Origin: Tethya wilhelma | Lineage: Eukaryota; Porifera; Demospongiae; Tethyida; Tethyidae | NCBI GenBank assembly: GCA_964030475.1 | Contig: CAXIPT010000002.1 | Coordinates: 19,935,010 to 19,999,009 of the forward strand | Reading direction: 5' to 3' | DNA length: 64,000 nucleotides | Shown: positions 39,662-64,000 of the stretch, one piece after another | Position numbering within the stretch: the first letter of the stretch is position 1 | How the letters are laid out: each line of letters starts with the position of its first letter | Made by a program: the position numbers and the translations under genes | The notes under the pieces: generated by a model | Databases searched by the model: none | The model's input: only the letters and a program-made list of their open reading frames with translations | What the model was told of the DNA's origin: nothing

Positions 39662-39740
39662 ATCAACCTAAACAATAATATTATCACTGTTGTATAAACA
39701 ATGATGTTTTGAAGCTTTTACCTAAATGCTTATAAATAAT

Positions 39741-41488: not shown

Positions 41489-44231
41489 GGTGGTGGAGGT
41501 GCTGTAGTGAGTCCTCCCTCTGATGAAAGGTGTGTGGCCATCAATGCTGTTGGGAGTGTTTCCATAGAGAATGGTGTCATCTGCTACAATGGCACATCCA
41601 CTGGCTCCCTTGCTACCTATCACTGCAACAGTGGCTATCAGTTGAAGGATGGAGATGGTCTACAAAGGTGTCAGAGTAACAGCCGCTGGGATGGACAAAT
41701 ACCCACTTGCAGACAAGGTACTGACTCTATACAGTCAGTTACCTCTCAGCTTATCATACGTACGGTAGTACGTGTTAGTTGGAATGGGTCGACTGTCCCA
41801 TAGACACAGTACAAATGTTTATGCTCATAAACTTTCAGAGAATGACAGCTAAGCCTTCAAACACAGATTAAAGCCTCCCTTGTATAGTTTTCTAACTGTA
41901 TGCATCAGTAAAACCGTCACAGAAACTTTCTAGAGCACTCTGGAGAGAACGCTGGCAGGAAGCCAGAACAGTGCAATTTTGTTTTCTCCTTCCTTCCTTC
42001 CTAACTGACAAATTGAATACGATTTCCAGACAAACAAAAGGCATTCAGCCAGCTTTGACTGCAGTGCAACTTGACTTCATCCAAACTATGTCCTTTTTTA
42101 CTTGTTTGGTGCCTAAAAGCTATATAAAATCTAGGTATTTTTAAAACTCTGGTATAAAATACTGTACTTGCATGTAGCCATATCTTGATGTAAGTAAAGG
42201 TTGTCAATAGACCACGTGGTTTGCATGCATGCATATAATGCGCATGCGCATCGAAAGCAGTAGCTCATGCTTTTTATATATTTAGAGACTGCAGTCTCTG
42301 ATAGCTAGTGCTCCATTGCGATTGAGCACCTTAATTAATGTTGGAAAAAGTGAACCAAGAAGTAAAAATTTCATAAAAATTAGCAGTGTAGGATTGGACA
42401 GTGCTGTAAAAAGGAAGGAAACAAGGCTGGGACTTTAAATTTAGGCACATGACTACTTCATCTTTAACTATTCCAAAATTTTCCAAGCTCACATAGTTTG
42501 CCTGTATACCTTCTAATTCATTCTAATAAGCTATGACTTGACAGAATTTTAATTCACGATCATGATTATAATTATGTGATAGAGACCACAGAAATGTGAA
42601 GTAGTCATGTGCCGAAATTTAAAGTCCCAGCCTTGTTTCCTTCCTTTTTTCAGCACTGCCCATTCCTACATTGCTAATTAATTTTTATGAAATTTTACTA
42701 ATTGTAAAGTTATGATGCAGTAGCAGTAACAAACTTACATACTTCTATCATGTACATGCAGAGCCCTGTTTGAATGCTGGCCGAGCATTTTTTGCTATTG
42801 CTCTACTGGTCATCATCATCACCATTGTGTTTGGTTCCTGTGTGATCTTCTATTCACGCTCAAATCCTTCTCAGAAGGTATCAGTGTACACAGCTGTCAT
42901 CTCTCTGGTCCTCTCATTGGTGTGTCTACTCCTGGTGATAATATTCTTTGCCTCAATGGAAGGACTCCAACAGAGCCAACCACTTTGTGCCATCAGCAAC
43001 CTTGTCTCAATCCTCTCAATAGTTTGTTGTATAGTGATCTGTTTGATTCTGACTGGAATCATTATCAATTTTAACCGTAAGTTGATGCTGGATTACCATT
43101 CAAAGCTAGTGGTTCCATAAAGTGAATTGCTAACCTTGTGTGCATTTTATACATAATTTTATCTTCAGAAAACTCTAAGGGCATTTTTAGACTACAATTC
43201 ACAAGTAATCAAGATATTATGATTCAATGTGTGTAACAGTAAGTCATTTAACCTTCAACTCATATGTATACCAATCAGGTAAATTTGAAACTAACCTTTC
43301 CGAACCTGCTGGTGCAAAGTTTGATAAACCAATTCATACTGACAACATTGGTAAACAGCCATCAATTGCCATGAACAACCAGTCAGTGATAGTGGAGGTA
43401 TACATGCATGAAGAAGGGTGGTGGAGAAAGACACCATTACTAAAGTATAGAGTCGGTTTTCTTGAGAACAATGAAATAACATGGAAACATAATGAACCCC
43501 CGTGTAACAACAATATTGGACAAAGACCTCGAGTTGCCATAAACAGTAGTAATATTGTGGTTGTTGTTTATGAATATGGCTGTTGCTTCTGTTGTGTTGG
43601 TTCTATCAATGAAGAAACTGGTATTATTGACTGGGGAGAAAAGGCTGAATTTGCAAATGGATATCTTCCTGATGTGGCCATCACAGATGCCAATAGAGTA
43701 ATCCTAACTTCAGTTAGTAATGGTTGCACATACTATTTTACTGGAAGCATCAACACTGAATCAAAAGCTGTTTTAAATATCAAGAAGAATAGTTTCCTGG
43801 CTGCATCTCATTTTTCTATTGCAGCCAATGGTGCTGGTAGAGTGGTTGCTGTTGTTACTGATAGCAATGAATGTGTACGTTGTGTTGCAGGTACTCTGAA
43901 AGAGGAAGGTGAAATAGAGTGGAAATCTGAAGACGCTCAAACACTCGTACAATCTACAGCAAATGTCCCTCCAGTTGTGAGCATGAACTCTCAAGGTTAT
44001 GTTGTGGTGGTCATCTCTCTTAAAAAATCACTACATGTGTTTGTAGGATGTACGTTCCTCAATGGTAATAGTGTTAAATTGGCTAAGACTCATGATCATC
44101 CTTCAAAGCGGTATAATGATGGTGATTATCCTGCTGTTTGTATCGATAGAAATATTATTGTTAAGATTTATGAGGCAAAGAAGAAGCGATACTACCACAT
44201 TGGATATTTGATTTTTGAATCAAGTGTTTAG
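41489..44231 (+). CDS. Receptor A: CCP, three membrane segments and propeller-like domain, 5' partial
   Basis: Exons 41489-41717 (CCP/sushi domain, CNSGYQLKDGDG and RWDGQIPTC), 42762-43076 (three membrane segments, starting FFAIALLVIIITIVFGS), 43169-43204 and 43279-44231 join, all in phase 1. The last exon encodes about 317 residues of repeats with GQRPRVAIN-SSNIVVVVYE, YLPDVAIT and YPAVCID motifs, ending IFESSV. By comparison with C and D, the missing N-terminal part should hold signal peptide, Ig and FN3-like domains. The fourth-from-last intron contains a foldback element (41755-42716). The 43169-43204 exon uses donor GTAATC, upstream of the site used in D. Ligand and function are unknown; it is likely a type I-like surface receptor with an intracellular propeller. 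Confidence 0.75.
41755..42716 (+). mobile_element. Foldback arm plus inverted-repeat pair in receptor A intron
   Basis: Begins ATCATACGTACGGTAGTACG and runs collinear with the 37870-38470 arm, including CCACGTGG near 42212 and GCGCATGCGC near 42241. The second part (42400-42480 against 42595-42716) is an inverted pair as at 38500-38820. Confidence 0.75.
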
Positions 44232-44529
44232 AGTTGTGATTATAAGAATGTACAGTCATTGTAAAATTAATTTTATCGTACATTTCTGAAATATACATAT
44301 ATCTATAGGATTTAGTTTTTAATGTTAATATCTTTATATGTTTGATTGTGTTTATAGTTTTGTTTTATGTGTCCATCCCTGATCTATCTATTGATTTATG
44401 CATACATTAAATTCAGTAGAAGAGAGTTTGTTATTTAATTTAGAAAAGTTTATTTTGTTTGTTTTGTTCAATTGTGTATTATGTAAACCAAAATGAAAAT
44501 AAAAATTTTGTGTCCAGTTCTATTGGCTG

Positions 44530-46031
44530 TAATTTGCTCTTGTTCAGAGTATAACTGCCACCAGGCTCACCCAACTCATCATCAATCTCTTCATGCATAA
44601 ATTATATATTCACATCTGGGTTTTACCTCCAATTTCGGTATGTTATCTTTACCCATAGTAGGCACTGTTGTATGTGGTGGTGGGGTTGGTTTACTGCCAG
44701 GTTTGACACTCTTGCCTTTATACTTCAATATGAAGACACCTGTCAAACTTGCAGTTACAACTCCAGCAGCAAAAGAGAGTATTGAAGTCTATTACTATAT
44801 TTGAATCGGTTTTTATCTCTACAAAATTTAATTAAACATTATGTAAAATGACATGCTGAAATCAAAACAGATAAATTAAAAAAACTTTTGTACAATACCT
44901 GATTTTAAGCACCCTCAGGCCTGCAAGTATTACATCACCATCCCAGTGTCCATCTGCCTGGCACACACGTTGAGTCTTGACTGATGGTACTTTGAAACCA
45001 TCATCACAAATGTAGCTTGCTGTTGATCCCAAGGTAGTACCACTGTAACACACCACTCCATTGGGAATTGAGAGACTGGCCACAGAGTCTGAGCCACATC
45101 TGAGGTCTATGCCATTTGTATTTGCTAACTCTGCTGTACAAAGGCTCGTGTAATTTCGGAACCTTAAGTTGGATGATAAATGAGATCCATTCCATTGCAC
45201 ACTGTAAGTACATGGAATAAGGTTAGAAATGGCTGGAAATAAACAAAGTCTAAAGACATACATGTGCTGAAACTTCCTTGCACTTTGCCCAGTACTTCTT
45301 CAATGCCATTCCTGTCAACAACCGCAGCTGCTGTGTAACAGTACTTTAAGTTGTTTTCCAAGTGTGGTAAAACAACTGTAGCTTTCCCGTATCCATTAGT
45401 GGGTACTGGAGGAAGACATGTCAGGTTATAGCAGTTTGGAATGACACCATAGCATATTTCACAGCTGGTTGGTAGCTGCCTGGCCAGAAAGAGGCACTCA
45501 ATTGTTGCATGTTCTGGTGTACTTGTGTTTGCAGTCACCTTCATAATTGCAACAGAGAGTGTGTAGTGGCCCGGCCGGCCCCGGAGCCAAAGAAACTGGT
45601 GGAAAGGGATGAACTTCAAATGTGACCTTGAAGCTTACAAGTGCGACTGTCCAGATGTTTTGTACAGAAATGAGTCTGTGTGTAGACTGGTCATATACTG
45701 GAACACTCAAACACATAGTAGGTTGCCCAGGAACTATATAATTAATGTAAACATTAACAAGTGAAGATCACCATTCAGATACAAAATTCAATGAATTATT
45801 CGGTATTTGTGATCATTATATACCCTCTGAGTTTAAGATGGATGTGGTGGTGGTTCCAAGTTGGTTGCCACAGTTCTTTGCATACACGACAAACCCATAT
45901 TGGTTCTCTGCTACAAGTCCACTGCATTTATAGTCGGTGTCGGGAGTGAGACATGTTGTTGCTGATGGACACACACTCCCAGCTGGTGCTATCACACAGT
46001 ACTCATCAACTGAGTGAGTTTCAGTGAAGGC
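44530..46031 (-). pseudogene. Receptor F: decayed copy of receptor E
   Basis: Homologous exon by exon to E: FN3 (45824-46031, cut at its 5' side), a 95-bp exon (45639-45733), a fused FN3/second module (45262 to about 45632), CCP (to 44908) and tail (44560-44790). Lesions are clear. The FN3 exon is fused by deletion to the next exon near 45545. A 5-bp insertion near 44930 shifts the CCP frame and loses its last Cys. The membrane segment is frameshifted near 44780. An insertion of about 13 bp at the YEEI position gives a stop after CEYIIYA. The 5' side ends inside an exon at 46031, where pseudogene B begins in the opposite direction. Confidence 0.8.
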
Positions 46032-46693
46032 ACTGTTAATGGTGAACTACTGGAGGACATTCAATCAAATATACTTTCAGGATACAGCTTCTCATATACT
46101 GATTTTGATCCAGCTGTTGTTAGTGAAGGAGGACGTCGGATAGCTAACTTCACAGCTATCTTAAGAGTAGAACTATCAGCAATTGAGAGTGGTGGACAGA
46201 TAGAGTGTTCTCAAGGCTCCAATCCGAGGCAAGCTATCAATGTCACTTATAAAACAAGAGGTATGCGTACTCGTGCATATATATCATAATGATATTAAAC
46301 AGTAGTTAATGTGGTCTTAGATAACATTGTCACAATGTGATAGTATGAGTCAAATAATAAAATTAATTTGTATACACAGTATACATAACTGATTTTGTAC
46401 ACTGAGATGCTCCCCCAGCTCCGCTCTTTGCTACTAGAGAGTTGGACTCCTCTTTCAGTTTGACCTTGTACTGGGATGAGAGCTTCTCAAGAGCTCATGC
46501 TGTTGAAATGTACTGCATTAGTAGTGATGGTGTGGAGTGTAACACATGTGTCTCTCCCAACACAACGGTTGTGTTTGTCTGTCCCCAACTAATGCAAGGA
46601 GAAGCCACTTCATTCTCTGTAAGAGCTGTCAACTGTGGAGGCCAACAAGGAGAGATTATAACTTTCACTGTCAACCCACAAGGTGAATAATAT

Positions 46694-46889
46694 ACCATAA
46701 ATTAAATTTGGTGAATTGACGAATTGTTTTTCAAAATGCCAAATTAAAAATTGCCAAAGAATTTTTACACACATGCACATATAAACAATGCAATGTGTGG
46801 AATTAAATAGCCAAATTTAAAATCACCAATCACGCTAAAACAGGAATTTGCCAAATTTTAAGCCCCCCAAATTCGCCTGCTATAAGGTA
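46694..46889. mobile_element. Possible MITE, distantly like the CCGTATAGC family
   Basis: Left end TACCATAAATTAAATTTGG and right end CCAAATTCGCCTGCTATAAG with flanking TA suggest imperfect inverted termini. The interior repeats GCCAAAT-type motifs. Weak match; it lies in an intron of pseudogene B. Confidence 0.4.
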
Positions 46890-47192
46890 TATACCCTTAT
46901 TAGTAATAATGCATGTGTTTGGGCGATTTGAAGATTTGAAAATTAAGCATGACTCAGCAAAATGTATGCCAATATTCATATTATGGAAATATCTGGGAAT
47001 AAAAACAGTTAAGTACAATGTAAACTTGTGCTCATGAATTTTTGTATTGTAAGTGGGGTCATTAATTTAGACATTACCTTTCAATGTGTAGTTCCTGGAA
47101 GGTCAAACTCTTGTTCTAGTGTTCCCATCTATAGCAGTGAAGCAGCTGGTGAACTCATTGGAATAGTGAACACATATGGAGTTTAGTGACTG

Positions 47193-47193
47193 T

Positions 47194-47278
<85 letters not shown>

Positions 47279-47282
47279 TGTG
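47193..47282. repeat. GT microsatellite
   Basis: About 90 bp of near-pure GT in an intron of pseudogene B. A similar GT run lies at 48762-48842 between its exons. Confidence 0.95.
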
Positions 47283-48770
47283 GCCACAAGCTTATTTTCT
47301 CAACTTGACCAGGATCCCCTGGTCTTCAACCCAGCTGTATTGAATTACATATTGTCCATTAATAATGAGACTACAGTCCCTCAAGAGGAGGTGTGTCTTC
47401 CTGCTACCAACCAATGTGAGTATGTGACACCGTATCTTTCAGAGACCAGAGAAGATCAACTCCAGACGATTGCTGTCTCTGTGACTGCTGAGAATGTAGT
47501 AGGGAGAGGAGAACCACAACCTTGCTCACCAACTATCTGTAGGTGGAGTCTTTGGTATTTCAGTATTACAGACTCAAAATTAATGCTGATATTAATTCAT
47601 TCACTGTATACTTGAACAGGTCCTACAAACAAAATTCTTGCCACATCTGTGGTTAGAAATGGTAGTGAAACTGTTGTCCAATGTCAGTTCACCACCACTC
47701 CACCTCAGTCAATAAAAGAGTGTATGTTCTGTTATGGAGACATCACTCAGAGCTGTGACCAACAGACCTTGGTGTGTCAACCTTCAATAGTGATTGAATT
47801 GCAGAACAATCAAACTGGAAAGGATAGCTTTGAGCTTCCAGATGAGTTTTGCTACCAAATCACAGCCACTGTGAATGGCAGCACTATAGCAGTGGTGTCA
47901 GGAAGAGTGCCGGGAGGCAGGTATGTACATGTATGGTGCTATTCTGTGACCATGGAAACTATCAGCAAAAGTATGAATATTCTCAATCCACCCACAGCCT
48001 GCCCTGTGTCTGCTCTTGGTGGTGGAGGTGCTGTAGTGAGTCCTCCCTCTGATGAAAGGTGTGTGGCCATCAATGCTGTTGGGAGTGTTTCCATAGAGAT
48101 TGGTGTCATCTGCTACAATGGGACATCCACTGGCTCCCTCGCTACCTATCACTGCAACAGTGGCTATCAGTTGAAGGATGGAGATGGTCTACAAAGGTGT
48201 CAGAGTAACAGCAGCTGGGATGGACAGATACCCACTTGCAGACAAGGTACTGGTCTTACTCTAAATCAGATTAGCTATCTAATTTAGTGCAGTCACATAC
48301 TTGAACACTTTTATTATCTACAGAGCCCTGTTTGAATGCTGGCAGAGCATTTTTTGCTATTGCTCTTCTGGTCATCATCATAGCCATTGTGTTTGGTTGC
48401 TGTGTGATCTTCAAGGCACACTGGAATCCTTCTCAGAAGTTATCAGTATTCACAGCAGCTGTCATCTCTGTGGTCATCTCATTGGTGTGTCTACTCCTGG
48501 TGATAATATTCTTTGGCTCAATGGAAGCACTCCAACAGAACCAACCACTTTGTGTCATCAGCAACCTTGTCTCAGTCCTCTCAATAGTGGCTTGTTTGAT
48601 TCTGATTGGAATCATCATAGGCTAGCTATTCGTAAGTTAATGCTGAATTGATAACATACAATGCTAAAACCTTCATAATTACTATCTTCAGGCAAAGGAA
48701 TTATAAAACTTCAATTTGCAAGTTTGAGCAATGAAAAAGGTAATGCATATAATTATTATGATTGTGTGTG

Positions 48771-48805
<35 letters not shown>

Positions 48806-48809
48806 GTGC

Positions 48810-48845
<36 letters not shown>

Positions 48846-49903
48846 CATTGCCTAGCAACCAAAGTTTTTTATAGGCTAACTGCTTGTTACTGGCTTGGTG
48901 GAGGTGACAGTAGAGTAGCTAGGGGTCAATGGCAAACAAACTAGTTGCACGTCCTTAACTCAACCATGCATCGAGTGCCCCCCCACTTGTGTCATGTAAC
49001 TATAATTAATGTGTGTGTGTGTGTATTAATTATTAGACCATAAACTTGTAACAATCAGGTAAAAATGAGTTTCCTAAACCTATTGGTGCAAAATTTGAGA
49101 AATCATTTTCTGATTCTAACATTGGCAAACAACCATCAATTGCTATTAATAGCCATTCATTGGTAGTGGAGATACACATGCATGAGGAACGTTCTGCAAT
49201 TTATAAGGTATGGGAGGACAAAAAATACTACTTAAGTATAGAGTTGGTAACTTTGACAACAATGAAATAAAATGGCGAAGTGATGGAGTACTATCTAGCA
49301 AAAATATCGGACAAAGACCTCGTATCGCAATAAACAATAATAATATTGTGGTTGTTGTTCATGAGAATCCAGCCAGAGACTGGTGCTTCTGTTGTGTCGG
49401 TTCTATCAATGAAGAAAATGGTACTATCGTATGGGGAGGAGAGACTGCATATGCTAATGGCTGTCTTCCTGATGTGGCCATCACAGAAAATAGAGTGATC
49501 CTGACTTCAATTGGTTCCAGTGGTGCTTATTGTTCGATTGGAAGCATCAACACTGAATCAAAAGCTGTTTCAAATACTAAAAAATTTAGTTTCCTCAATA
49601 ACGTGAATGCATCTCATCTGTCTATCACGGCCAATGGTGCTGGTCAAGTGGTTACAGCTTATCGTCTTACTAATGACAGTAATAACTACATCTGTTGTGT
49701 TGCTGGAACTCTGAAAGAAGAAGGTGAAATAAAGTGGCAATCTGAAGAGCCTGCAACACTTGTACAATCTACAACAAATGTTCCTCCAATTGTTGGCATA
49801 AACTCTAAAGGCTATGTTGTGGCAGTTGTCGCTCTTAAGGAATCACTACATTTTTATGTGGGTTACACATTTTATAGCAGTGTTGAAGTGAGTGTAAAAT
49901 TTA

Positions 49904-50630
49904 TGGAGCAGCAGAAAACAAAAGTGTGTGGCACTATCGACTGCAGAAGCGGAGTACATTGCACTATCGGCAGCTGTCCAAGAATGTATTTGGCTAAACC
50001 AACTCAGCAAAGAAATGGGAAAAACATCTGATACAGTCACCATCTATGAAGACAACCAAGCAACCATTGGCATGGCAAAGAACCCACAGTATCATGGTCG
50101 TGCCAAACACATAGACATTCGTCATCATTTTGTTCGAGAACAAGTCTCTCTTGGAACCATCAAACTTAATTTTTGTCCTACAACAGAGATGATAGCAGAT
50201 ATATTGACCAAAGGACTGCACCGTGATCAATACTGTAAACTACGAGAAAGGGCTGGAATGTGTGAGTTACATCAAGTCAAGTGAGGAGGAGTATTAGAAG
50301 ATGTCCTTTTTGTTTACACTTGGACTTAATGTATACATGACTTTGATTATGTCATTGTTGCTAGTAGTTGTATGTAAGAATGTTAATTAGTCATTAGTTG
50401 TACATTGTTTTCCTGTAACTGTCTTCTTTGTGTACTGGTGTTGTCTCTTTGTCTCTGAACAATAGCTCTTTGTTTGTAAAGAGGCCCTGCGCGTCTCTAT
50501 TGCATTACTTATCTTGTAACACACTCTTCTTGGTTATTATTGCTAAAAACTTTGTCACAGTTAAAACTGAGTGTGGGTTGTCTGCAGAATTTAGTGAAGC
50601 CTTTAGATATTCTCGTAACTCTTGCTAACA
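49904..50630 (+). mobile_element. Copia-type LTR retrotransposon, 3' fragment
   Basis: Starts abruptly inside the RNase H domain (WSSRKQKCVALSTAEAEY, then VTIYEDNQATIGMAKNP, KHIDIRHHFVREQV and ADILTKGL), which is typical Ty1/copia. It continues to a stop at 50284, a purine-rich tract GTGAGGAGGAG, and a complete 339-bp LTR at 50292-50630 (TATTAG to CTAACA). CCATA follows directly. Everything upstream of RNase H is missing, and the left flank is the propeller exon of pseudogene B. Confidence 0.93.
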
Positions 50631-51120
50631 CCATAGACACAATACAAACTATTTATCGCCATAAAAATCTAACAACACAAAGTAGAGGCTTCAAACTTGC
50701 TCAGAGGCTCTCCTTTACAGAAAACCAACTGCATGGAAGGCTAAACTTTGCCGAAACGTTTCTGATCACTCGTAGAGAGAGCGCTTGCGAGAAGCCACAC
50801 TAGTACAATTTTGTTCTCCTAACTTACTTACTTCCTTCTAACTGACTTACTTGAGAACGATTTCCAGAGAACCAGAAAGTGTTGAGCCAACTTTGACGCC
50901 ACAAAGTAAGTTCTTTTCTTGGGTAGTACGTTCCTTTATACTCGTTTTCATCGTAAATAGGCCTGAACAAAAACTAGAAAGCTTTGAAACTTAGTGTATA
51001 AATTCATGTGCTACAAATGAAGTAGTCATGTGCCGAAACTGAGACCCTACCTTGTTCCAATACTTTTTACCGCACTGCCCATTCCTACACTACTTATTTT
51101 TTCAAAATTTTTACTACTTG
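50631..51120 (+). mobile_element. Foldback arm, right part, interrupted by copia
   Basis: Resumes at CCATAGACACAATACAAA, the same internal point where the foldback copy at 62738-62788 is interrupted. It continues with the TCGTAGAGAGAG and ACTTACTTAC subtype and ends through CACTGCCCATTCCTACA and TTTTTACTACTTG. Confidence 0.8.
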
Positions 51121-51154
51121 TAGATATTATACACTACGTAGTGTATAATATCTA
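51121..51154. repeat. Perfect 34-bp palindrome upstream of receptor C
   Basis: The arms TAGATATTATACACTAC and GTAGTGTATAATATCTA are exact reverse complements with no spacer. The palindrome lies between the end of the foldback repeat and the receptor C promoter, 62 bp before the start codon. Confidence 0.95.
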
Positions 51155-51215
51155 TGGCTCTATTTATAGATTCACGCATGCGCAGTCTCTCGCTTGATTC
51201 AGCCGAGTCAGCACC
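51155..51215 (+). promoter_or_regulatory. Receptor C promoter region with CGCATGCGCAGTC block
   Basis: CTCTATTTATAG (TATA-like) is followed by ATTCACGCATGCGCAGTC and GAGTCAGC before the start codon. The block ATTCACGCATGCGCAGTC with GAGTCAGC recurs upstream of receptor D at 56148-56193. GCATGCGCA resembles an NRF1-type site. Inferred from conservation between the paralogues. Confidence 0.55.
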
Positions 51216-54013
51216 ATGCAGCAGTACGTTTCTGTGTGCGGCAGAATGAGAATGGATACGTTTAGTTTCTTCACCACAGTAATTTACATGGCTGTGTTTT
51301 TATCTGGTAAGTGTCACCATAGTTGCAGTATTGCAGCATATATACAAGGATGCATAATACTTCACACAGGGTCAGATACCCAGATCATTAGTCTATCATC
51401 AAGTGTCCCATTTGGTGATGATACTAAACTGTGTCCTGACACGGTGGTGGAATTTAGGTGTGTTGGAATCAAGTTAGAGACACTTCAATGGCGTTCTGAT
51501 CAAGTGGTGGTTATCTATGGCATTGATAGTGAGGAATATCGTATAGACATTCAACCAGGCACACCTCCAGGGTACAACTTATCCCTAGCAAGTTTTAAGC
51601 CATTTCTTAATGGAACACATCAGGTTGCCAACTTCACTGCAATCTTAAGAGTAGCACTGTCAGCACTTCCAAGTGGTGAACATATTGATTGCTATCAAGG
51701 ACCAACCCTGAATGAAACAATCAATGTTGTTTACTCTGTCAGGGGTAAGCTGTGAAGCATGTATCTAAATTAATCATAACTGGTCCATAGCCTATGTATT
51801 GCCACAGATGCTCCCCCAGTCCCAATCTTTTCTACAAACTTCACTAGAGGGTTGGACTCTTCTTTCAGTTTGACCTTCTACTGGAATGAGAGCTTCTCAA
51901 GAGCTCATGCTGTTGAGATGTACTGCATTAGTAGTGATGGTGTGGAGTGTAACACATGTGTCTCTCCCAACACAACGTTTGTCTGTCCCCAACTAATGCA
52001 AGGAGAAGCCACTTCATTCTCTGTAAGAGCTGTCAACTGTGGAGACCAACAAGGAGAGAATATGACCTTCACTGTCAACCTACAAGGTGCATGATTGTTC
52101 AATTGCCATTTATATGGACAACATGTGGGCCCTGGTTGTAGGGTAATACCTAAGGACTTGTAATAGTCATCATGCATGAGTATGCACTAATAATAGTATA
52201 AGGAATTTGGTTTAGATAGTAAGGCCATCAATAATAATTGTCATTGTCTGACTCATTGCTTATACGTAGATGCAATTCTTTTTGAAAAGTTGTAATGCAC
52301 TATGTGAATATCATACAGTGGAGTTTCGCGGAGTTTAACTGGTTTGGTTTAGATAGTGTAAGGTCATCAATAATAATTGTCATTGTCTGACTCATTACTC
52401 ACTATGTACCGTATAGCGAGAAAGTTTTGCAGTATCAAACTTTCGCGTATGTCTCTAGTCAAACATTTTTGCTTTTTAACTTTCGTGGATGAGCTGTGTG
52501 AGCCCATACGTATAATACATTGTGGAGAATTTCGCAGCTAAAAACTTTTATGGATGGATCGTGATCCGCAAAAGCCGTGAAAGTTAACTCCCACGAAACT
52601 TTCCTGCTATAATGGTATGCACAATCCTTTTGAAAAGTTGAAATATTCTTTCTTAGTTCCTGGACGGTCAAACTCTTGTTCCAGTGTTCCCACCTACAGC
52701 AGTGAAGGAGATGGTGAGCTCATTGGAATAATGAACACATGGAGTTTAGTGACTGTAAGTAACTTTTCCATAATAAGTTGCTATGCTTTAAGCTAGGTTG
52801 TGGTATAATTATAGTGATATAATACATTGTTCCATTTCTCACAGGACACCTTGGTCTTCAACCCAGCTGTATTGAATTACATATTGTCCATTAATAATGA
52901 GACCACAGTCCCTCAAGAGGAGGTGTGTCTTCCTGCTACCAACCAATGTGAGTATGTGACACCGTATCTTTCAGAGACCAGAGAAGATCAACTCCAGACG
53001 ATTGCTGTCTCTCTGACTGCTGAGAATGTAGTAGGGAGAGGAGAACCACAACCTTGCTCACCAACTATCAGTAGGTGGAGTCTTTTTTACACTCAATAAT
53101 TATTTCATATAATGTATTATGTACTCAAACAGATCAGACAAACAAAATTCTTGCCACATCTGTTGTTAGAAATGGTAGTGAAACTGTTGTCCAATGTCAA
53201 TTTACCACTCCACCTCAGTCAATGGAGGAGTGTATGTTCTGTTATGGAGACATCACTCAGAGCTGTGACCAGCAGAGCTTGGTATGCCAGCCTTCAATAG
53301 TGGTCCAGGACAATCGAACAGGAATGGCTAGCTTTGATCTTCCAGATGAGTTTTGCTACCAAATCACAGCCACTGTGAATGGCAGCACTATAGCAGTGGT
53401 GTCAGGAAGAGTGGAGGCAGGTATGTCTTTCTATTACTGTGGAAACCATTAGTCAAAGAACGTATTACCGTATAGCAGGAAAATTTTGCAGGGTTTAACT
53501 TTCACGAATTTCACGGATCATGCTTCATCTGTGAAAGCGTTTATGGACGAAATTTTGCGCAATGTGTATATGTATGGGCTCGCACAGCTCATCCGCGAAA
53601 GTTAAACCACAAAAATGTTTGACTCTGTCAAAGTTTGATATCGCAAAACTTTCCTGCTATACGGTAATTCCCCCAGCCTGCCCTGTGTCTGCTCTTGGTG
53701 GTAGAGGTGCTGTAGTGAGTCCTCCCTCTGATGAAAGGTGTGTGGCCATCAATGCTGTTGGGAGTGTTTCCACAGAGAATGGTGTCATCTGCTACAATGG
53801 GACATCCACTGGCTCCCTTGCTACCTATCACTGCAACAGTGGCTATCAGTTGAAGGATGGAGATGGTATACAAAGGTGTCAGAGTAACAGCACCTGGGAT
53901 GGACAAATACCCACTTGCAGACAAGGTACAGAGGTGACCCTGCATGCAGTTAGTTCCTAACCCTATTGTCACATGTACACATGCACCCACACACCCACAC
54001 ACCCACACCCACA

Positions 54014-54075
<62 letters not shown>

Positions 54076-54076
54076 N

Positions 54077-54125
<49 letters not shown>

Positions 54126-54127
54126 GT

Positions 54128-54172
<45 letters not shown>

Positions 54173-55707
54173 ACACACACACAATCTACTGACAGAGCCC
54201 TGTTTGAATGCTGGCCGAGCATTTTTCACCATTGCTCTTCTGGTCATCATCATAACTGTTGTGTTTGGTTTCTGTATGATCTTCAAGGCATACTCAAATT
54301 CTGCTCAGAACCCCTCAGTGATCACACTAGCTGTCATCTCTGTGGTCCTCTCATTGGTGTGTCTACTCCTGGTGATAATATTTTTTGCCTCAATGGAAGC
54401 ACTCCAACAAAGTCAACCACTTTGTGTCATCAGCAACCTTGTCTCAGTCTTCTCAATAGTTGGTTGCATAGTGATTTGTTTGATTCTGACCAGAATCATT
54501 CAACTCAGTTATTGTAAGTTATTAAATTCCCCATAATAATAGATTGTATAAACATGCTCTTTTTGGTTATGCTTTGTTTACTATTTTCCTTCGTGTAGGT
54601 GAAAGTAGTGTACTCATTCAATATCGGAATGATGAATGTACGTACACTGCATGTTGTTTTATGACTTACTACAGTATATTGCATTAATCACATTGAGAAT
54701 ATAAATTATTCCTTTTCATAATAGCAAATGGTGATATTCTTACTAGTGCAATTCTTGGCAAGTCATTTCATGATTCCAAAGCCTATGGTAAACGCCCATC
54801 AATTGCTGTGAACAACAGTTCACTGATTGTGGAAGTGCATGAGGAATGGTGGTTTAGGGAGAGTTCAAGAAAAGGTCTGCAGTATAGAGTTGGCCGACTT
54901 GAGGGAGATCGAATAAATTGGTTAAGTGATGGTGGACAACAAAACTACAATGACGGTAAAAATCCTCGTGTTGCAATTAACAGTAACAATATAGTGGTTG
55001 TTGTACATGAGACTCTATCCACTGACTGGTGCAACTATCGTGTTGGTTCCATCAATAAAAGCACTGGTACTATTGACTGGGGGAATGATACTTTATTTGC
55101 TAAAGGATGTCTTCCTGATGTGGCCATCACTAGCAGTAATAAAGTGATCCTGACTACAATTGGTTCCAGTGGCGTATACTACTCAGTTGGAAACATCAAC
55201 CCTGATGCAAATGCCATTTCAAACCTGAAGAAATTACCCACAAATCTAGATGCTTCTCAGTTATCTATTGCAGTCAGCCATGTCAATGGGGAAGATAGAG
55301 TGGTCGCAGCTTGTGTTAGTGGTGACTCCATTTGTGTCAAGGCTGGGAAGTTATCTCAAGATGGTGAAATAGAATGGCAATCTGATGAATCTCAAACACT
55401 CGTACGATCTCCTATTACTGTCCCTCCAGTTGTGAGTATCAACTCTCAAGGCTATGTTGTGGTGGTTGTCTCTCTTAAGAAAAGACTCTACTGCTATGTC
55501 GGACACACTTGTCATGCCATCACTGATGCAGGAGTTAAATTGACCATGTTACAACCATCAAATCCATATGATGTTGGTGATTATCCTGCTGTTTCTGTTA
55601 ATGACAAAAACAAAATTGTGGAGATTCATGAAACTAATTATTATCCAGGGACAAGACTCTACTATCACACTGGAGAGTTAATTTTTGCCTGTCACAATAG
55701 AGACTAG
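51216..55707 (+). CDS. Receptor C: Ig/FN3/CCP ectodomain, three membrane segments, propeller-like C-terminus
   Basis: Ten exons join in frame to 981 aa: 51216-51306, 51370-51744, 51808-52086, 52657-52754, 52845-53070, 53133-53420, 53677-53925, 54196-54513, 54599-54637 and 54725-55707. In order: signal peptide (FFTTVIYMAVFLSG); Ig-like domain (CPDTVVEFRCVGIKLETLQW to HIDCYQG); FN3 domain (SFSLTFYWNESFSRAHAVEM); FN3-like domain split over two exons; a Cys-containing module (VVQCQFTTPPQSMEECMFCY); CCP domain; three membrane segments (VISVVLSLVCLLLVIIFFAS is the second). The last 327 residues hold six repeats of GxxPxVAIN-xxxVVVVHE...YxVGxI type, probably a six-bladed propeller on the cytoplasmic side. 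Nearly all introns are phase 1, typical of shuffled extracellular domains. I infer a recognition receptor; ligand and signalling are unknown. Confidence 0.85.
52409..52615. mobile_element. MITE of the CCGTATAGC family in receptor C intron 3
   Basis: A 207-bp element starting CCGTATAGCGAGAAAG and ending CTTTCCTGCTATAATGG, with TA on each side. Internal motifs (AAACTTTCGC and CGTGATCCGC) match the copy at 24052. Confidence 0.85.
53468..53664. mobile_element. MITE of the CCGTATAGC family beside the CCP-exon acceptor of receptor C
   Basis: A 197-bp element from CCGTATAGCAGGAAAA to TTTCCTGCTATACGG with TA on both sides. Only 12 bp separate its right end from the first base of the CCP exon (53677), so the branch point probably lies inside the MITE. 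The paralogous intron in D has no insertion and is only 77 bp. Confidence 0.88.
53988..54183. repeat. CA microsatellite with single-N join at 54076
   Basis: About 190 bp of CA/CCCACA repeats between the CCP and membrane exons of receptor C, interrupted by one N. True length is unknown. Both flanking exons stay in phase with each other. Confidence 0.95.
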
Positions 55708-56235
55708 GAGAATACTAAGTCACTTATAGTCTCTTTGGGTCTGGCCATGAGAATATATATGGCTCTACTACTAAATAGCTGTCTTCTTTGTTTTTTTAAT
55801 AATTATTATAAGGTTATCATTGTTGTGTATATTGATTGAATTTTTAATGTTCTTAGATATGCAATTGTCATTATCTTAATAATTCTATCCATCAATCCCA
55901 TTTTGTATCAATTTTATGTATGCCAATTTTTAATAAAAACTTTTGGCAGTTCTATGTTGTAAAATTAGATTACCGAATGTAAAACATTGGGGAGAAATTT
56001 AATTTGCTAGTTTAGCTAGTGAGTCACATGCACCCAAAAAAATTGGTAATTATTTCCCTATACCTCATCTCATGACAGTCAAAGAGGAGAGCCTGCATGA
56101 GAGCAAGGGTATGCAGAATGTATTTCACTCGAGCCATGGTGTAGTTGGATTCACGCATGCGCAGTCTTCAGCAGCTAAGCTGAGTCAGCGCCCAGTTTTA
56201 TCACCAAGAAAACTGAAATTGTGGAAAGAGAATCA
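55708..56235. promoter_or_regulatory. Intergenic C-D region with shared promoter block at 56148-56193
   Basis: AT-rich 3' flank of C (AATAAAAAC near 55931 may serve as poly-A signal), then the block GGATTCACGCATGCGCAGTC with GAGTCAGCGCCC, the same as upstream of C. No other gene was seen. Confidence 0.55.
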
Positions 56236-59200
56236 ATGGATATCTGCATCACAGCGATTTGCATGGTTATGCATGTTGTTTGTAAGTGTCACTGCCACTG
56301 TCAAACTTCATTAACAGTCCAGTCAGTTACTTCAAGTTTGTATTATTGATACAGGGTCAGCTGCCCAGACCATTAGTCTATCATCAAGTGTCACATTTGG
56401 TGATGATACTGTACTATGTCCTGACACGGTGGTGGAATTTAGGTGTGTTGGAATCAAGTTAGAGACACTTCAATGGCGTTCTGATCAAGTGGTGGTTATC
56501 TATGGTATTGATAGTGAGGAATATCGTATAGACATTCAACCAGGCACACCTCCAGGATACAACATCTCCCTTGTAAGTTTTAACCCTTTTCAGAGTCTTA
56601 ATGGAACACATCAGGTTGCCAACTTCACTGCAATCTTAAGAGTAGAACTGTCAGCACTTCCGAGTGGTGAACGTATTGATTGTTATCAAGGACCGACCCT
56701 GAATGAAACAATCAATGTTGTTTACTCCATTGGAGGTATTTATTTTGAAGCATAAAATAATACCTGGTGTGTAGTTAAATATGATACTTCTATTGTCAAA
56801 CATAGATGCTCCACTCTTTGCTACTAACTTCACTAGAGGGTTGGACTCCTCTTTCAGTTTGACCTTCTACTGGAATGAGAGCTTCTCAAGAGCTCATGCT
56901 GTTGAAATGTACTGCATTAGTAGTGATGGTGTGGAGTGTAACACATGTGTCTCTCCCAACACAACGTTTGTCTGTCCCCAACTAATGCAAGGAGAAGACA
57001 CTTCATTCTCTGTAAGAGCTGTCAACTGTGGAGGCCAACAAGGAGAAAATATGACCTTCATTGTCAACCCACAAGGTGAATTGCATTCATGGCCAACACC
57101 CTACTTGTGATGTTAGTGGTCCTCTATGTGTGTGTATAGTAGACCACAAATAGAGTGGATTATAATAGGGTACTACAGCACCAAAACAATGTTTTGATGT
57201 ACACTACACAATTAGTACAACACCTTATTTGTTTCAAGTGTCAGTGTGAGTGTGGGCTCATTTGTTTTACAGTTCCTGGACAGACCAACTCTTGTGTAAG
57301 TGTTCCCACCTATGGCAGTGAAGGAGATGGTGAACTCATTGGGATAATGAACACATGGAGTTTAGTGACTGTGAGTGACTCTTCCATTAGTTGCTATGCT
57401 ACAGGAGCTGGTTATGAATATTTTATGTTCCAATTCTCACAGGACCCCTTGGTCTTCAACCCAGCTGTATTGAATTACATATTGTCCATTAATAATGAGA
57501 CTACAGTCCCTCAAGAGGAGGTGTGTCTTCCTGCTACCAACCAATGTGAGTATGTGACACCGTATCTTTCAGAGACCAGAGAAGATCAACTCCAGACGAT
57601 TGCTGTCTCTGTGACTGCTGAGAATGTAGTAGGGAGAGGAGAACCACAACCTTGCTCACCAACTATCAGTAGGTGGAGTCTTAAATCTGCATTTTGCACT
57701 CAGTATAATTAATATTTTCTGTAATGTATCACTATGCGTACTCAAACAGGTCTGACAAACCAAATTCTTGCCACAGCTGTGGTTAGAAATGGCAGTAGAA
57801 CAGTTGTCCAATGTCAATTCACCACTCCACCTCAGTCAATGGAGGAGTGTATATTCTGTTATGGAGATATCACTCAGAGCTGTGACCAGCAGCGCTTGGT
57901 GTGTCAACCTTCAATAGTGGTTCAAGACAATCAAACTGGTATGGCTAGCTTTGAGCTTCCAGATGAGTTTTGCTACCAGATCACAGCCACTGTGAATGGC
58001 AGCACTATAGCAGTGGTGTCAGGAAGAGTGGAGGCAGGTATGTACATGTATGGTGCTATTCTGTAACCATGGAAACTATCAGCAGAAGTATGAATATTCT
58101 TAATCCACCCACAGCCTGCCCTGTGTCTGCTCTTGGTGGTGGAGGTGCTGTAGTGAGTCCTCCCTCTGATGAAAGGTGTGTGGCCATCAATGCTGTTGGG
58201 AGTGTTTCCATAGAGAATGGTGTCATCTGCTACAATGGGACATCCACTGGCTCCCTTGCTACCTATCACTGCAACAGTGGCTATCAGTTGAAGAATGGAG
58301 ATGGTCTACAAAGGTGTCAGAGTAACAGCAGCTGGGATGGACAAATACCCACTTGTAGACAAGGTACATGTACTGGTCTTACTCTCCACCAGATTAGCTA
58401 TCTAATTCAGTGCAGTCATATACTTGCACGCTTTTATCATCTACAGAGCCCTGTTTGAATGCTGGCCGAGCATTTTTTGCCATTGCTCTTCTAGTCATCA
58501 TAGTCACCATTGTGTTTGGTTGCTGTGTGATCTTCAAGGCACATTGGAATTCTTCTCAGAAGCTATCAGTATTCACAGCAGCTGTCATCTCTGTGGTCCT
58601 CTCATTGGTGTGTCTACTCCTGGTGATAATATTCTTTGTCTCAATGGAAGCACTCCAACAGAGCCAACCACTTTGTGTCATCAGCAACCTTGTCTCAGTC
58701 CTCTCAATATTGGCTTGTGTAGCAATTTGTTTGATTCTGGCTGGAATCACCATTACTAATCGTAAGTTAATGCCAGATTGGTACCATACAGTGTATTGCT
58801 AACCTTGTGTGCACTTTATATCTTCAGGAAAAGAACCAGAAATCAGAACTGATCAAGGTAAATTATGATTGAATTATGTGTAATGATAAATTATTTAAAC
58901 TTCAACTTTAATGTACCAATCAGGTAAATTTGAAAGTAACCTCCCTGAACCTGTTGGTGCAAATTTTGATAAACCACTTCCTGATTCTAACCTTGGTAAA
59001 CAACCATCAATTGCCGTAAACAGCCAGTCAGTGATAGTGGAGGTACACATGCATGAGAAAGGGTGGTGGAGAAAGACACTATTACTAAAGTATAGAGTCG
59101 GTTTTCTTGACAACAATGGAATAACATGGCGACATAATGGAGTACTGAATAACAAGAATATCGGACAAAGACCTCGAGTTGCAATAAACAACAGCAATAT

Positions 59201-59891
59201 TGTGGTTATTGTTTATGAGAATCAAGCCAGAGACTGGTGTTTCTGTTGTGTTGGTCTTGTCAATAAAAAAACTGGTACTATTGTATGGGGAGAAGAGGCT
59301 AGTTATGCTAAAGGATGTCTTCCTGATGTGGCCATCACAGACACTAATAGAGTAATCCTAACATCAGTTGGTTCCAGTGGTGCGTATTATTCTACTGGAA
59401 GTATCAACACTGGACCAAAAGTTGTTTCAAATACCAAGAAATTTAGTTTCCTCAATAACGTCAATGCATCTCATCTCTCTATTGCAGCCAATGGTGCTGG
59501 TCGAGTTGTTGCAGTTGTCACTGGTAACATCAATGAATGTGTATGTTGTGTTGCTGGTACTTTGAAAGAGGATGGTGAAATAGAGTGGCAATCTAAAGAC
59601 CCTCAATCACTCATACAATCTACTGCAAATGTCCCTCCAGTTGTGAGCATCAGCTCTCGAGGTTATGTTGTGGTGGTTGTCTCTCATAACAAATCACTAC
59701 ATGTGTTTGTAGGACATACGTTCCACAATAGCAATATGAGTGTTCAACTGGCTGAGACTCACCCTTCAAAGCAGTATGATGACAGTGACTATCCTGCTGT
59801 TTGTATGGATAAAAATATTATTGTTAAGATTTATGAGGCAAAGAAGTGTTACTACCACATCGGACATTTGATTTTTGAATCAAGTGTTTAG
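56236..59891 (+). CDS. Receptor D: intact paralogue of receptor C
   Basis: Ten exons join in frame to 956 aa: 56236-56281, 56355-56735, 56806-57075, 57273-57370, 57443-57668, 57750-58037, 58115-58363, 58447-58761, 58828-58857 and 58924-59891. Exons 4 to 7 have the same lengths as in C. The start is chosen because the frame MDICITAICMVMHVV ends in phase 1 at GTAAGTG, as in C; an upstream open frame from 56072 does not splice in phase. Domain order is as in C. The ectodomain is almost the same as that of C (for example PTNQCEYV-type and CCP exons nearly identical), whereas the propeller-like domain is much closer to A (about three quarters identical by eye) than to C. The 3' end converges with receptor E, 288 bp away. 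Confidence 0.85.
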
Positions 59892-60179
59892 AGTTCTGAT
59901 TATATGTACACGTACAGTCATACTGAAGCTTATATTGTTCATTTTCTTAAGTGTATACATATATCTACAGGGTTTATAGCTTTAACCTTAGCTTTATGTG
60001 TTTGGTTGTGTGTATAGTTTTGTTATGCAGGTCCACCCCTGTTCTATCTGCTGAATCATACGTGTATACATCGAATTTAGTAGAAGAGAATTTGTTATTA
60101 ATTTTTACTTTAGAAAGTTTGTTTTGTTTGATGTGTGCAATGTGTAGCAAAGTGAAAATGAAAATTTTGTGTCCAATTT

Positions 60180-62714
60180 CTACAGTTCTATGGGCTGATA
60201 TGATTTGTTCTTGTCCAGAGTATAACTGCCACCAGGCTCACCCAACTCATCATCAATCTCTTCGTATTCACGTCCTGGTTTTACCTCCAATGTTAGTGTG
60301 TTATCTTTACCCATAGTGGGTACTGCTGTTTGTAATGGTGGGGTTGGTTTACTGCCAGGTTTGACACTTTTGCCTTTATACTTCAATATGAAGACACCTG
60401 TCAAACTTGCAGTTGCTCCAGCAAAAAAACCAAGAATTAAAGTGCAAAGGCTTGATATTGATGTCAATGTCACAGTTGAATCACTTTTTGTCTCTATAAA
60501 TATTTATTATGAAATGAGTTAAAGGACATGTTGATTAAAACTAGAATGCATTAAATTCTAATCACTGACTACCTGATTTTAAGCACCCTGCAAGTATTAC
60601 ATCACCATCCCAGTGTCCATCTGCCTGGCACACACGTTGGGTCTTATCTGATGGTATTTTGAAACCATCATCACAAATGTAGCTTGCTGTTGATCCCAAG
60701 GTAGTACCACTGTAACACACCACCCCATTGGGAATTGAGAGGCTGGCCACAGAGTCTGAGCCACATCTGAGGTCTAGAACACTATTCATATTCATGGTGG
60801 TGCTTTCATAGCCCACCAGATCTCTCTCATTGCATTCTGTGTTGTGCAAAGTGAATGTTTTTGGAAAGTTAAGTTTACTCACAGAGAATAATTATTATTG
60901 ATAATAAATAATCATTGAACACAAATCTCTACTCATTAGTGCATGTGTTTACCTGAGCTGAAAGTTCCCTGCACCACAAGGACTTCAACGCTATTGACAA
61001 CAGCAGTGGCTGTGTAGCAATAGTGTACTGTCCTTTCCAGCTGTGGTAGAGAGACAATAGCTCTACCATTGTTATTAGTGTCCACTGGTGGTAAACAGGA
61101 CAATATCTTAGGGCATGTTTCCATTACACTTGCTGCATAGCACACTCTGCATCTAGCTGAATTAGTTTGAAACTGGCACCTGATAGTAGCATGTTCTGGA
61201 AAACTTGTATTGGCAGTCACTTGTAACATGGTGTTGGATGTACCTGTACATGTACATGTATGCAAAATGCTATGTTAGAAATCATTAATGTAAACTCTTA
61301 CTTATGTGGTCTGGTGTACAAGTCAGGTGTCCTCCCAACCCAACTATGTTTTCAGATGCAACAGAGAGTGTGTAGTGGGAGCCAAAGAAACTGGTGAAAA
61401 GGGTTGATTTGCATCTTAGTGAAGTACATGAATCAGCAACAGAGACTGTTGTGCTTCCTTTTGAAATACCATCTCTCTCAAAAGTGATGTTGTACCAGAG
61501 GACATTTTGATTGACTCCTTCAGTTATTTCCACAGGGTTCTTATGAAGTGTAATGAGGTTTTCTTATTTCTGACTCTTAGTTGTAGTAATGTAAGTAACT
61601 TACAAGAGCAGGTGTCCAAAAGTTGTTCACAGCAACAAGTCTCCCAGTCTTTTGGTCGTATACAGGTACACTTACACATGAGCTAAGCAAATGAGGCTCT
61701 GTATTACAAGAACACAAAGTTAACTCGATTTAATTGCAAAATACTATAAAATTAATATTAATTTTACTTTGAGGGTTTATGATGGATGTGGTGGTGGTTC
61801 CAAGTTGGTTCACACAGTTCTTTGCATACACAACAAACCCATATTGGTTCCCTGCTACAAGTCCACTGCATTCATAGTCAGTGTCTGGAGTGAGACATGT
61901 TGTTTCTGATGGACACACACTCCCAGCTGGTGCTATCACACAGTACTCATCAACTGAGTGAGTTTCAGTGAAGGCATTGTCCCACTGTAGAGTGAGCTTC
62001 ACAGAGCCAGACTCTTTAGTGATATTAGGGATAAGTGGTACTACTGGTGGAGGAGCTGTATTGGAAGAATAAGATCTATATATAGTATTGAGCAATTTAT
62101 CATACCGAAAAATCGATATAATTATATTCATAATTATGTGTGAAGATTAAAAGTGGTGTAAAGATGACATCATGTTTTGTCAATAATACAATACAGTCCT
62201 ACCATGTTTTCTATAGATGAGCTGTGCTTCATTTCCAGTACTACTGACACAGGATATCTGATCTCCGAATCTCAATGCAAATGGCTCTACAACAAGCCTT
62301 GAAGTCAGATTAGCTCTGTCTGTTCCTTCAGATCTAGCTGTGTGGACAAGCTGAACTTGAATTCCATTGAGACTTGTTGCTGCAAGTTGATCACTTGGTT
62401 GAGCACTGCTAGTTAGAATTCGAATAGTTATGTTGTCTAGTTTCCATATAAGTGTTGAGGTATCTGTTGCAGTACATGTAAACTCTACAGGAGCTCTCAG
62501 CGGACACACTCCTCTTGGATCAGACAGAGTTACATTTGCAGTCAGAGTTGCATCCCTAAGACTTCTAATTACGGTTGGAACTGCAGCAATAAAACATATT
62601 AAATATGATCACCCAGTATTTCTACCTGTTTATCTACTAGATCTACATACGTTGCAACATTAACAACAGTGCCAGCCTTGAGAGAAACTTAATAGTTGCT
62701 TGTTCAGTAACCAT
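60180..62714 (-). CDS. Receptor E: Ig/FN3/CCP ectodomain, one membrane segment, tyrosine-motif tail
   Basis: Eight exons join in frame to 643 aa: 62651-62714 (signal peptide, FLSRLALLLMLQ), 62203-62580 (Ig-like, CPLRAPVEFTCTATDTSTLI to QISCVSS), 61768-62055 (FN3, VKLTLQWDNAFTETHSVDEY), 61604-61698, 61302-61539 (FN3), 60953-61243 (Cys-containing module), 60573-60836 (CCP) and 60180-60493. The last exon gives one membrane segment (LCTLILGFFAGATASLTGVF then ILKYKGK) and a tail of about 70 residues with three tyrosines in YEEI, YTLD and YQPI, ending PIEL. Ectodomain plan and intron phases match receptors A to D, but the three membrane segments and propeller are replaced. YEEI is a classic Src-type SH2 ligand, so kinase-coupled signalling is an inference. 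The start could also be an in-frame Met at about 62735. Confidence 0.83.
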
Positions 62715-63127: not shown

Positions 63128-63236
63128 GGTTATGGGCCCAGGGCCGCACTAGTCTTGAGTTCAGTCAGGGAATAAGTGAACTATTCTAGCGAATAGATCT
63201 AACAGTTTGTTGCCGACGAAGGTCGAAGGTTGAATC

Positions 63237-64000
63237 ATGGCAGACATTAAGACTGCAATCATTCCCTTGAACGGGAAGAACTATCCCACATGGAAAGTTC
63301 AGTGTCGGATGGCACTGGTTAAGGACAGTCTGTGGAGCATTGTAAATGGGACGGAAGCAGCTCCGTCCGCGAGCCAAGCAGATGCCCGAAAGAAATTCAT
63401 GGCCCGGAGAGATCGTGCACTGGCAATTATCGTGCTAGCGGTAGATCCATCCTTACTCTACCTGCTAGGAGACCCAGAAGACCCTAAAGCTGTCTGGACT
63501 AAGCTCGAGGAACAGTTCCAGAGGAAAACATGGTCAAATAAGCTGAGATTAAGAAGAAAGCTTTTTGCACTGAAGCTGAAGGAAGGCGCCTCTGTTAACG
63601 ATCACATCAAGAACATGACGGAGATCTTCGAGGCACTCGCCGTCATTGGTGATGCAATAACTGAGGAAGACAAAGTTGTCTATTTGCTCGCCAGCTTGCC
63701 CGACTCCTACAACATTCTGGTGACTGCACTGGAAGCCCAGTCAGAGAGCGTGCCTCAATGGAATATCGTGACAGAGAAACTGTTGCACGAGGAGTTGAAA
63801 CACAAGGAAAAGTCAGCCACGCCCTCCACTACTGCAGAGCACAGTCGAACGGCTCTAGTCACACAACAGAAGAAAGGCTCTGGCCTAAAAAAGGCATTCA
63901 CCTGTCACTATTGTCACAAGCCAGGTCACTTCAAGAGAGACTGCAGGAAATATCTTGCAAGCCTGAAGAAGGAGTCAACCAATGTAGCTCAGGAGAGTGA
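63237..64000 (+). CDS. Copia Gag (3' beyond window)
   Basis: An open frame from ATG 63237 to the window end, about 254 codons without a stop. It shows the copia-type Gag core (IIPLNGKNYPTWKVQCRMAL, LYLLGDPEDPKAVWTKLEEQ, and LRRKLFALKLKEGASVNDHI) and a CCHC zinc knuckle CHYCHKPGHFKRDC near the C-terminal side. Gag packages the element RNA. The frame is intact and the LTRs match, so the insertion is young and may be full length beyond the window. Confidence 0.9.
   Translation, partial: MADIKTAIIPLNGKNYPTWKVQCRMALVKDSLWSIVNGTEAAPSASQADARKKFMARRDRALAIIVLAVDPSLLYLLGDPEDPKAVWTKLEEQFQRKTWSNKLRLRRKLFALKLKEGASVNDHIKNMTEIFEALAVIGDAITEEDKVVYLLASLPDSYNILVTALEAQSESVPQWNIVTEKLLHEELKHKEKSATPSTTAEHSRTALVTQQKKGSGLKKAFTCHYCHKPGHFKRDCRKYLASLKKESTNVAQES

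Follow-up and report, generated by a model that had tools for sequence, protein, structure and literature searches.

A sponge locus in which intact and broken receptor genes lie side by side raises the question of what such receptors are for and how their parts came to be combined. We have analyzed a window of 64,000 nucleotides of the Tethya wilhelma genome (C2:19935010-19999009; genome 124.6 Mb in 204 contigs), in which the original prediction had placed four plus-strand genes, A to D. The cluster survey read 132 kb, reaching past the window, in a single assembly. Over this distance there are eight P-type units, with three transmembrane (TM) helices and a propeller, and eight Y-type units, with a single TM helix and tyrosines in the tail; several are partial, and there are fragments besides. 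The two classes are interleaved and in places head to head, the middle of the P genes is homogenised, and the trees of the two gene ends conflict. The reading that we favour, tentatively and with slightly less than even confidence, is that the two classes may act together, by a paired mechanism, in recognising microbes or other cells, whether self or non-self. The minus-strand Y class, the mosaic genes and a likeness to fester of the tunicate Botryllus are points beyond the original prediction.

The P-type members are A-D in the window and P5-P8. Their order of parts, a V-type immunoglobulin (Ig) domain, an FN3-like domain, a split FN3-like unit, a cysteine (Cys) module, a CCP, three membrane helices and a six-bladed propeller, is as originally described and was read in C, D, P7 and P8. 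The single gene plan claimed for A-D holds for C and D, which have ten open exons each, while A and B are damaged or partial. Eight of the nine introns in C and D are in phase 1, as had been claimed for nearly all of them, and one, inside the second FN3-like unit, is in phase 0. On the plus strand, C comprises a hydrophobic signal-type start (exon 1, 51216-51306), the Ig exon (51370-51744), the FN3-like exon (51808-52086), the second FN3-like unit (52657-53070, exons 52657-52754 and 52845-53070), the Cys module (53133-53420), the CCP or Sushi exon (53677-53925), the TM exon (54196-54513), and a short linker exon and propeller exon within 54599-55707 (54599-54637 and 54725-55707). The corresponding parts of D, also on the plus strand, are the hydrophobic signal-type start (56236-56281), Ig (56355-56735), FN3-like (56806-57075), second FN3-like unit (57273-57668, exons 57273-57370 and 57443-57668), Cys module (57750-58037), CCP or Sushi (58115-58363), TM exon (58447-58761), short linker (58828-58857) and propeller (58924-59891). 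All three TM helices lie within one exon in both genes, and the propeller that follows is about 320 amino acids long. The same exon series recurs past the window in P6, P7 and P8. P8 joins into a single open frame from Ig to stop, and P6 carries one stop. The TM-propeller splice junction of P7 was not settled by a simple rule; its TM and propeller parts share one uninterrupted frame of 537 amino acids, so that their linkage is independent of splice guesses.

The Pfam check proposed with the original prediction succeeded in part: Sushi is the sole clear domain, FN3 in gene F falls just under the cut-off, and the other parts have no clear match. An Ig profile search gave no matches. We assign the tip to the Ig fold because its cysteines are conserved across 14 aligned tips and because of a model of the D Ig, whose confidence is middling (five models, scoring from 43.8 to 70.6; alignment of 4 sequences). 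The PDB matches listed for this model, judged by their titles, are nearly all V domains.

That the P-type ectodomain lies outside the cell is argued by its 25-26 Cys, by its 14-15 sequons for N-glycosylation and by the signal-type start of the protein; with three helices to follow, the C-terminus would then be inside. Lysine or arginine (K/R) occurs in the loop after helix 1 in 7 of 7 copies, whereas in 6 of 7 the loop after helix 2 is free of them. K+R number 30 in the propeller, which has 4 sequons, and 19-25 in the longer ectodomain. From the sequons, cysteines, helices and loop charges, the propeller is predicted to face the cytosol, in support of the intracellular placement first proposed; these features are consistent with it, not proof.

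Structure comparison bore out the propeller itself. The D propeller matches six-bladed folds, namely sialidases and NHL domains, with TRIM NHL domains among the best by VIA-align. Photorhabdus PLL/PHL lectins top the Foldseek list and are absent from the 50 VIA-align rows listed. Sialidases and NHL domains share the six-bladed fold of the sponge propeller; these two and the PLL/PHL lectins differ from it by low identity, 8-12% in the rows listed, with one row at 15%. Sialidases are marked by Asp boxes and a [YF]RIP-type motif; this motif set occurs in none of the eight propellers, and sialidase activity is rejected on this ground. We know of no propeller of the sialidase, NHL or lectin type that forms the tail of a receptor behind three TM helices. 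Searches by sequence found little: the D propeller had no match among PDB sequences and nothing in NCBIfam, a propeller profile search and a PDB search with a diverged propeller paralogue gave chance matches only, and full-length D had none at E <= 0.001 among 7998 candidates scored in the protein database. The propeller alone found one relative (33%) and the diverged paralogue nine, one of them with Pfam PI-PLC domains. The propeller repeat strings were not found as text in the literature.

The Y-type members are E, F, H, I, J, K and M, with fragments and the truncated Y5. The minus-strand genes E and F and their relatives beyond have the P-type ectodomain order, then a single membrane helix and a tail with tyrosines. 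Gene F (60183-62581, minus strand, in match coordinates) has Ig at 62201-62581, FN3 at 61769-62056, the FN3-like unit at 61604-61699 and 61300-61542, Cys at 60954-61244, CCP at 60574-60837, and the TM helix with tyrosine tail at 60183-60494. F-like tails gave 7 matches in the genome, all in the cluster (9 of 9 candidates scored). Four of six unbroken F-like tails keep YEE[IV] and YQP[IV], and all six have at least one YxxI/L/V; the tyrosines look like kinase and SH2 sites. The tail of M matches weakly (26.6%). In J and K the single helix is followed by a second type of tail, acidic, mutually similar and with an LEY motif, in which no YxxI/L/V was counted.

Genes of the two classes stand head to head at four places, E/B, Y5/P5, H/P6 and J/P7. 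The E/B remnants are 18 bp apart, and the gaps between Ig exons are 444 bp (Y5/P5), 460 bp (H/P6) and 747 bp (J/P7). Each of these last three gaps contains one CGCATGCG core. A CGCATGCGCA core also lies upstream of C (51175-51184) and of D (56154-56163), and the 12-base palindrome TGCGCATGCGCA, which we take to be NRF1-like, is found upstream of several receptor genes.

The P genes are mosaics of different ages. Across the 15 pairs formed by the six P genes with a complete exon set, median synonymous divergence (dS) is 1.67 for the Ig, 0.075 for FN3, 0.27 and 0.040 for the split FN3-like unit, 0.18 for Cys, 0.035 for CCP, 0.21 for TM and 1.20 for the propeller. The exons from FN3 to the membrane are thus alike (median dS 0.035-0.27), and the Ig tip and propeller are old. 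Strong nucleotide similarity of D to B, P6, P7 and P8 begins at the FN3 exon and drops past the TM exon; C and D have similar Ig exons as well. Nearest neighbours by Ig are C and D, B and P6, and P7 and P8; by propeller they are P6 and P8. The Ig and propeller trees are each rejected by the other's data (approximately unbiased test, p 4e-8 and 7e-47), and 10 of 15 quartets conflict. Alike stalks between old ends with conflicting trees argue that tips and propellers were re-combined, and recombination through the homogenised stalk appears to be the simplest account. Assembly error among near-identical repeats is possible, though the divergent ends argue against it. The Y genes are less homogenised (median identity 77% for FN3, 54% for Cys).

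On the paired reading, each P chain would present a V-type Ig tip on a stalk of FN3, FN3-like, Cys and CCP modules, cross the membrane three times and offer its propeller as a docking domain on the cytosolic side. Head-to-head P/Y pairs would probably be driven by one promoter region, and the two chains would be co-expressed and co-assemble. By analogy with Botryllus fester and its co-receptors, they may cooperate, the P chain serving ligand binding and assembly and the Y chain phosphotyrosine signalling, with the propeller giving a second output in the cytosol. Old tips would be re-paired with old propellers by gene conversion or unequal crossing-over within the near-identical stalk, which would create new input-output combinations. 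The cluster may also be polymorphic. The narrower proposal of a fester-like allorecognition locus, in which two V-type Ig tips of a P/Y heterodimer form the binding site and the shuffled, diversified cytosolic propeller sets the output, is doubtful. To our knowledge the receptors behind sponge graft rejection are not settled, and the paired design is otherwise known from tunicates. The locus supplies concrete candidate genes for these receptors and a receptor plan with diversified parts on both sides of the membrane, shuffled against each other. If the narrower proposal is true, recognition pairs of a three-TM and a tyrosine-tailed chain are as old as animals or arose twice. The origins of self-recognition in animals would look different according to whether the likeness to fester is inherited or convergent.

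This likeness was judged on architecture, with the fester side taken from the published descriptions cited here. The P genes have in common with the fester family of the fuhc locus the order of signal sequence, Ig, Sushi and three TM helices, and like fester they have an N-terminal V-type Ig. Fester, with its short tail, adjoins and is co-expressed with one-TM co-receptors whose tails bear YxxI/L/V, ITIM or hemITAM motifs (PMC12065747); the P genes have such a neighbour at the four head-to-head places, one of them without breaks. Fester genes act in fusion and rejection (PMC12065747; PMC3549757). Uncle fester (FF3) and fester (FF1) have near-identical 3' exons and unrelated 5' ends (PMC12065747, PMC3549757), resembling the shared stalk with different tips in the sponge. 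The original remark that the design was not recognised as a described family is therefore to be qualified, since Ig, Sushi and three TM helices beside one-TM tyrosine partners are already on record in fester (PMC12065747). As described, fester has about 350 amino acids and a short tail without a known signalling domain, whereas the sponge P gene has its 320-residue propeller; two FN3-like units and a Cys module are further parts of the P genes; and fester has one TM helix per exon (exons 8-10; PMC3549757), the P genes three in one. Given fester's TM-per-exon arrangement and its missing cytosolic domain, we do not class the sponge genes with fester; at most they may work like it. The Y genes resemble Botryllus FcoR, a one-TM type I protein with V-type Ig, Sushi and a YxxI/L/V tail beside a three-TM partner, but FcoR has two C2-type Ig domains after Sushi (PMC12065747), and in the Y genes the CCP is preceded by FN3-like units and a Cys module. 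Our tentative reading is of a paired recognition system on the lines of fester, with a likeness that probably arose by convergence.

Several observations weigh against this reading. Ig-tip identity is 25.4% between partners and 25.2% between non-partners (3 and 6 pairs), which rules out partner-specific likeness and runs counter to a simple shared-ligand model. Of the four places, J/P7 alone shows no break in either gene: truncation affects E, B, Y5 and P5, and H is open but its partner P6 has the stop. No head-to-head Y gene was found for the intact C, D and P8 in the 132 kb read. One intact place in four, together with the second tail type in J and K, lowers the odds both of the favoured reading and of the narrower allorecognition proposal. 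None of six F-like tails has a canonical immunoreceptor tyrosine-based activation motif (ITAM) or hemITAM and one has the inhibitory (ITIM) pattern; ITIM or hemITAM is described for many FcoR tails. The palindrome of the gaps is common genome-wide, with 2581 sites against 3 for a reversed control, and so is no special mark of the receptor locus; more probably it serves many promoters as a common element. The fold need not be cytosolic in every case, since similar propellers elsewhere adjoin an aerolysin-like part or, in microbial proteins, a phospholipase. Finally, exon medians of the ratio of nonsynonymous divergence (dN) to dS are below 1 in P genes (0.27-0.60) and Y genes alike. In two recent Y-type Ig pairs dN is slightly above dS (I-J 0.13/0.11, K-M 0.07/0.05). 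Positive selection as the main signal is ruled out, and the fast evolution originally proposed is not seen in dN/dS; the signature is mosaic re-combination.

Such constraint would also suit an ordinary adhesion or matrix receptor family, grown by tandem duplication, its middle homogenised by concerted evolution alone and its propeller linked to cytoskeleton or protein turnover, with no part in recognition. This alternative, possible though rather unlikely, draws further on the FN3 and CCP modules common in adhesion proteins, on the TRIM NHL domains among the best propeller matches, and on a Geodia cydonium protein, named multiadhesive, with fibronectin, SRCR and CCP modules (title cited in PMC10855680). 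That sponge protein shares FN3 and CCP with the Tethya receptors but has SRCR, and its title names no Ig, three-TM or propeller part. Old, diverged tips and propellers re-combined over a homogenised stalk, a tyrosine-tailed sister class and many broken copies suit recognition clusters better. A literature search of titles and abstracts, with most subscription journals and preprints outside its reach, recognised no such sponge family, which does not imply that it is unpublished.

It is less probable, indeed unlikely, that the receptors sense microbes or symbionts rather than serve allorecognition, the tip binding microbial surfaces and the propeller reading glycans or recruiting death-fold and ZU5 partners on the cytosolic side. 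The fold lies near lectins and sialidases, and two paralogues on C1 have ZU5 just downstream (propeller exons followed by a ZU5 domain at L040:5588-8402 and L020:1264-3221, C1:19.36 Mb). However, the sialidase motif is missing throughout, ligand binding is putative, and the Death-like exon beside the C1 genes, seen by eye, was not borne out in scans: it had no Pfam match at E <= 1, a chance match only among PDB sequences, and no listing in a genome scan (150 of 591 candidates scored). Propellers of this type occur in other company as well. Long open reading frames (ORFs) at C2:3.82 Mb and C1:19.16 Mb (L027, L028, L029) join one to an aerolysin-like part, which in the one scanned gave a Pfam value of 1.8e-4, under the cut-off. 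The metagenomic protein P0008 has such repeats with Pfam PI-PLC domains, so the module occurs in microbial enzymes too.

That the cluster is merely decaying, mostly pseudogenes without present function, is very improbable. In its favour, breaks or missing parts mark A, B, E, Y5, P5, P6 and a copy near 109-111 kb, and copia-like remnants lie in and beside the cluster. Against it, the frames of C, D and P8 are open over their whole length, the matched exons of P7, F, H, I and J are free of stops, and the dN/dS medians indicate constraint. Intact and broken copies do stand side by side, as originally noted. In the window, gene A (41489-44231, plus strand), preceded by a run of N, is a partial P-type gene with CCP (41489-41716), TM exon (42761-43069) and propeller (43278-44231). 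Gene E (44515-46037, minus strand) is a broken Y-type gene with part of FN3, part of the FN3-like unit, Cys, part of CCP, and one TM helix and tail in two pieces; no Ig was found among its remnants. Gene B (46056-49923, plus strand) has half an Ig, all remaining ectodomain exons, the TM exon and a propeller that is frame-shifted and cut short. By eye, a copia-like RNase H stretch lies at the end of B (49898-50284) and a gag-like open frame at the end of the window (63234-63998).

The sponge assignment of the genome holds from COX1 codon use and silicatein-like exons. In COX1, TGA occurs 8 times in frame and the AGR codons, at 11 sites, fit Arg well, which rules out a tunicate origin. Exons with CGASYAFSAMGALEGANAL, presumably a mark of the demosponge enzyme silicatein, resemble silicatein. 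In a genome search with the ectodomain, 88 of 350 candidates were scored, so that its counts are lower bounds; among the matches listed, all TM-exon matches (8 rows, query start >= residue 376) lie within the cluster. The first FN3-like domain also matched at C6:5.70-5.76 Mb, C6:4.75, C5:0.13 and C4:6.60 Mb, with 32-48% identity; these sites may be further clusters of related ectodomains, and none has a P-type TM-exon match among those listed.

Two other features lie in the window ahead of the cluster. On the minus strand, two near-identical long ORFs with several hydrophobic segments (28808-30865 and 31916-33103), seen by eye, point to a recent duplication. On the plus strand, just outside the cluster, a receptor-like ORF pair (38974-39671) has a TM helix followed by a short tail with a YELQ stretch at its end.

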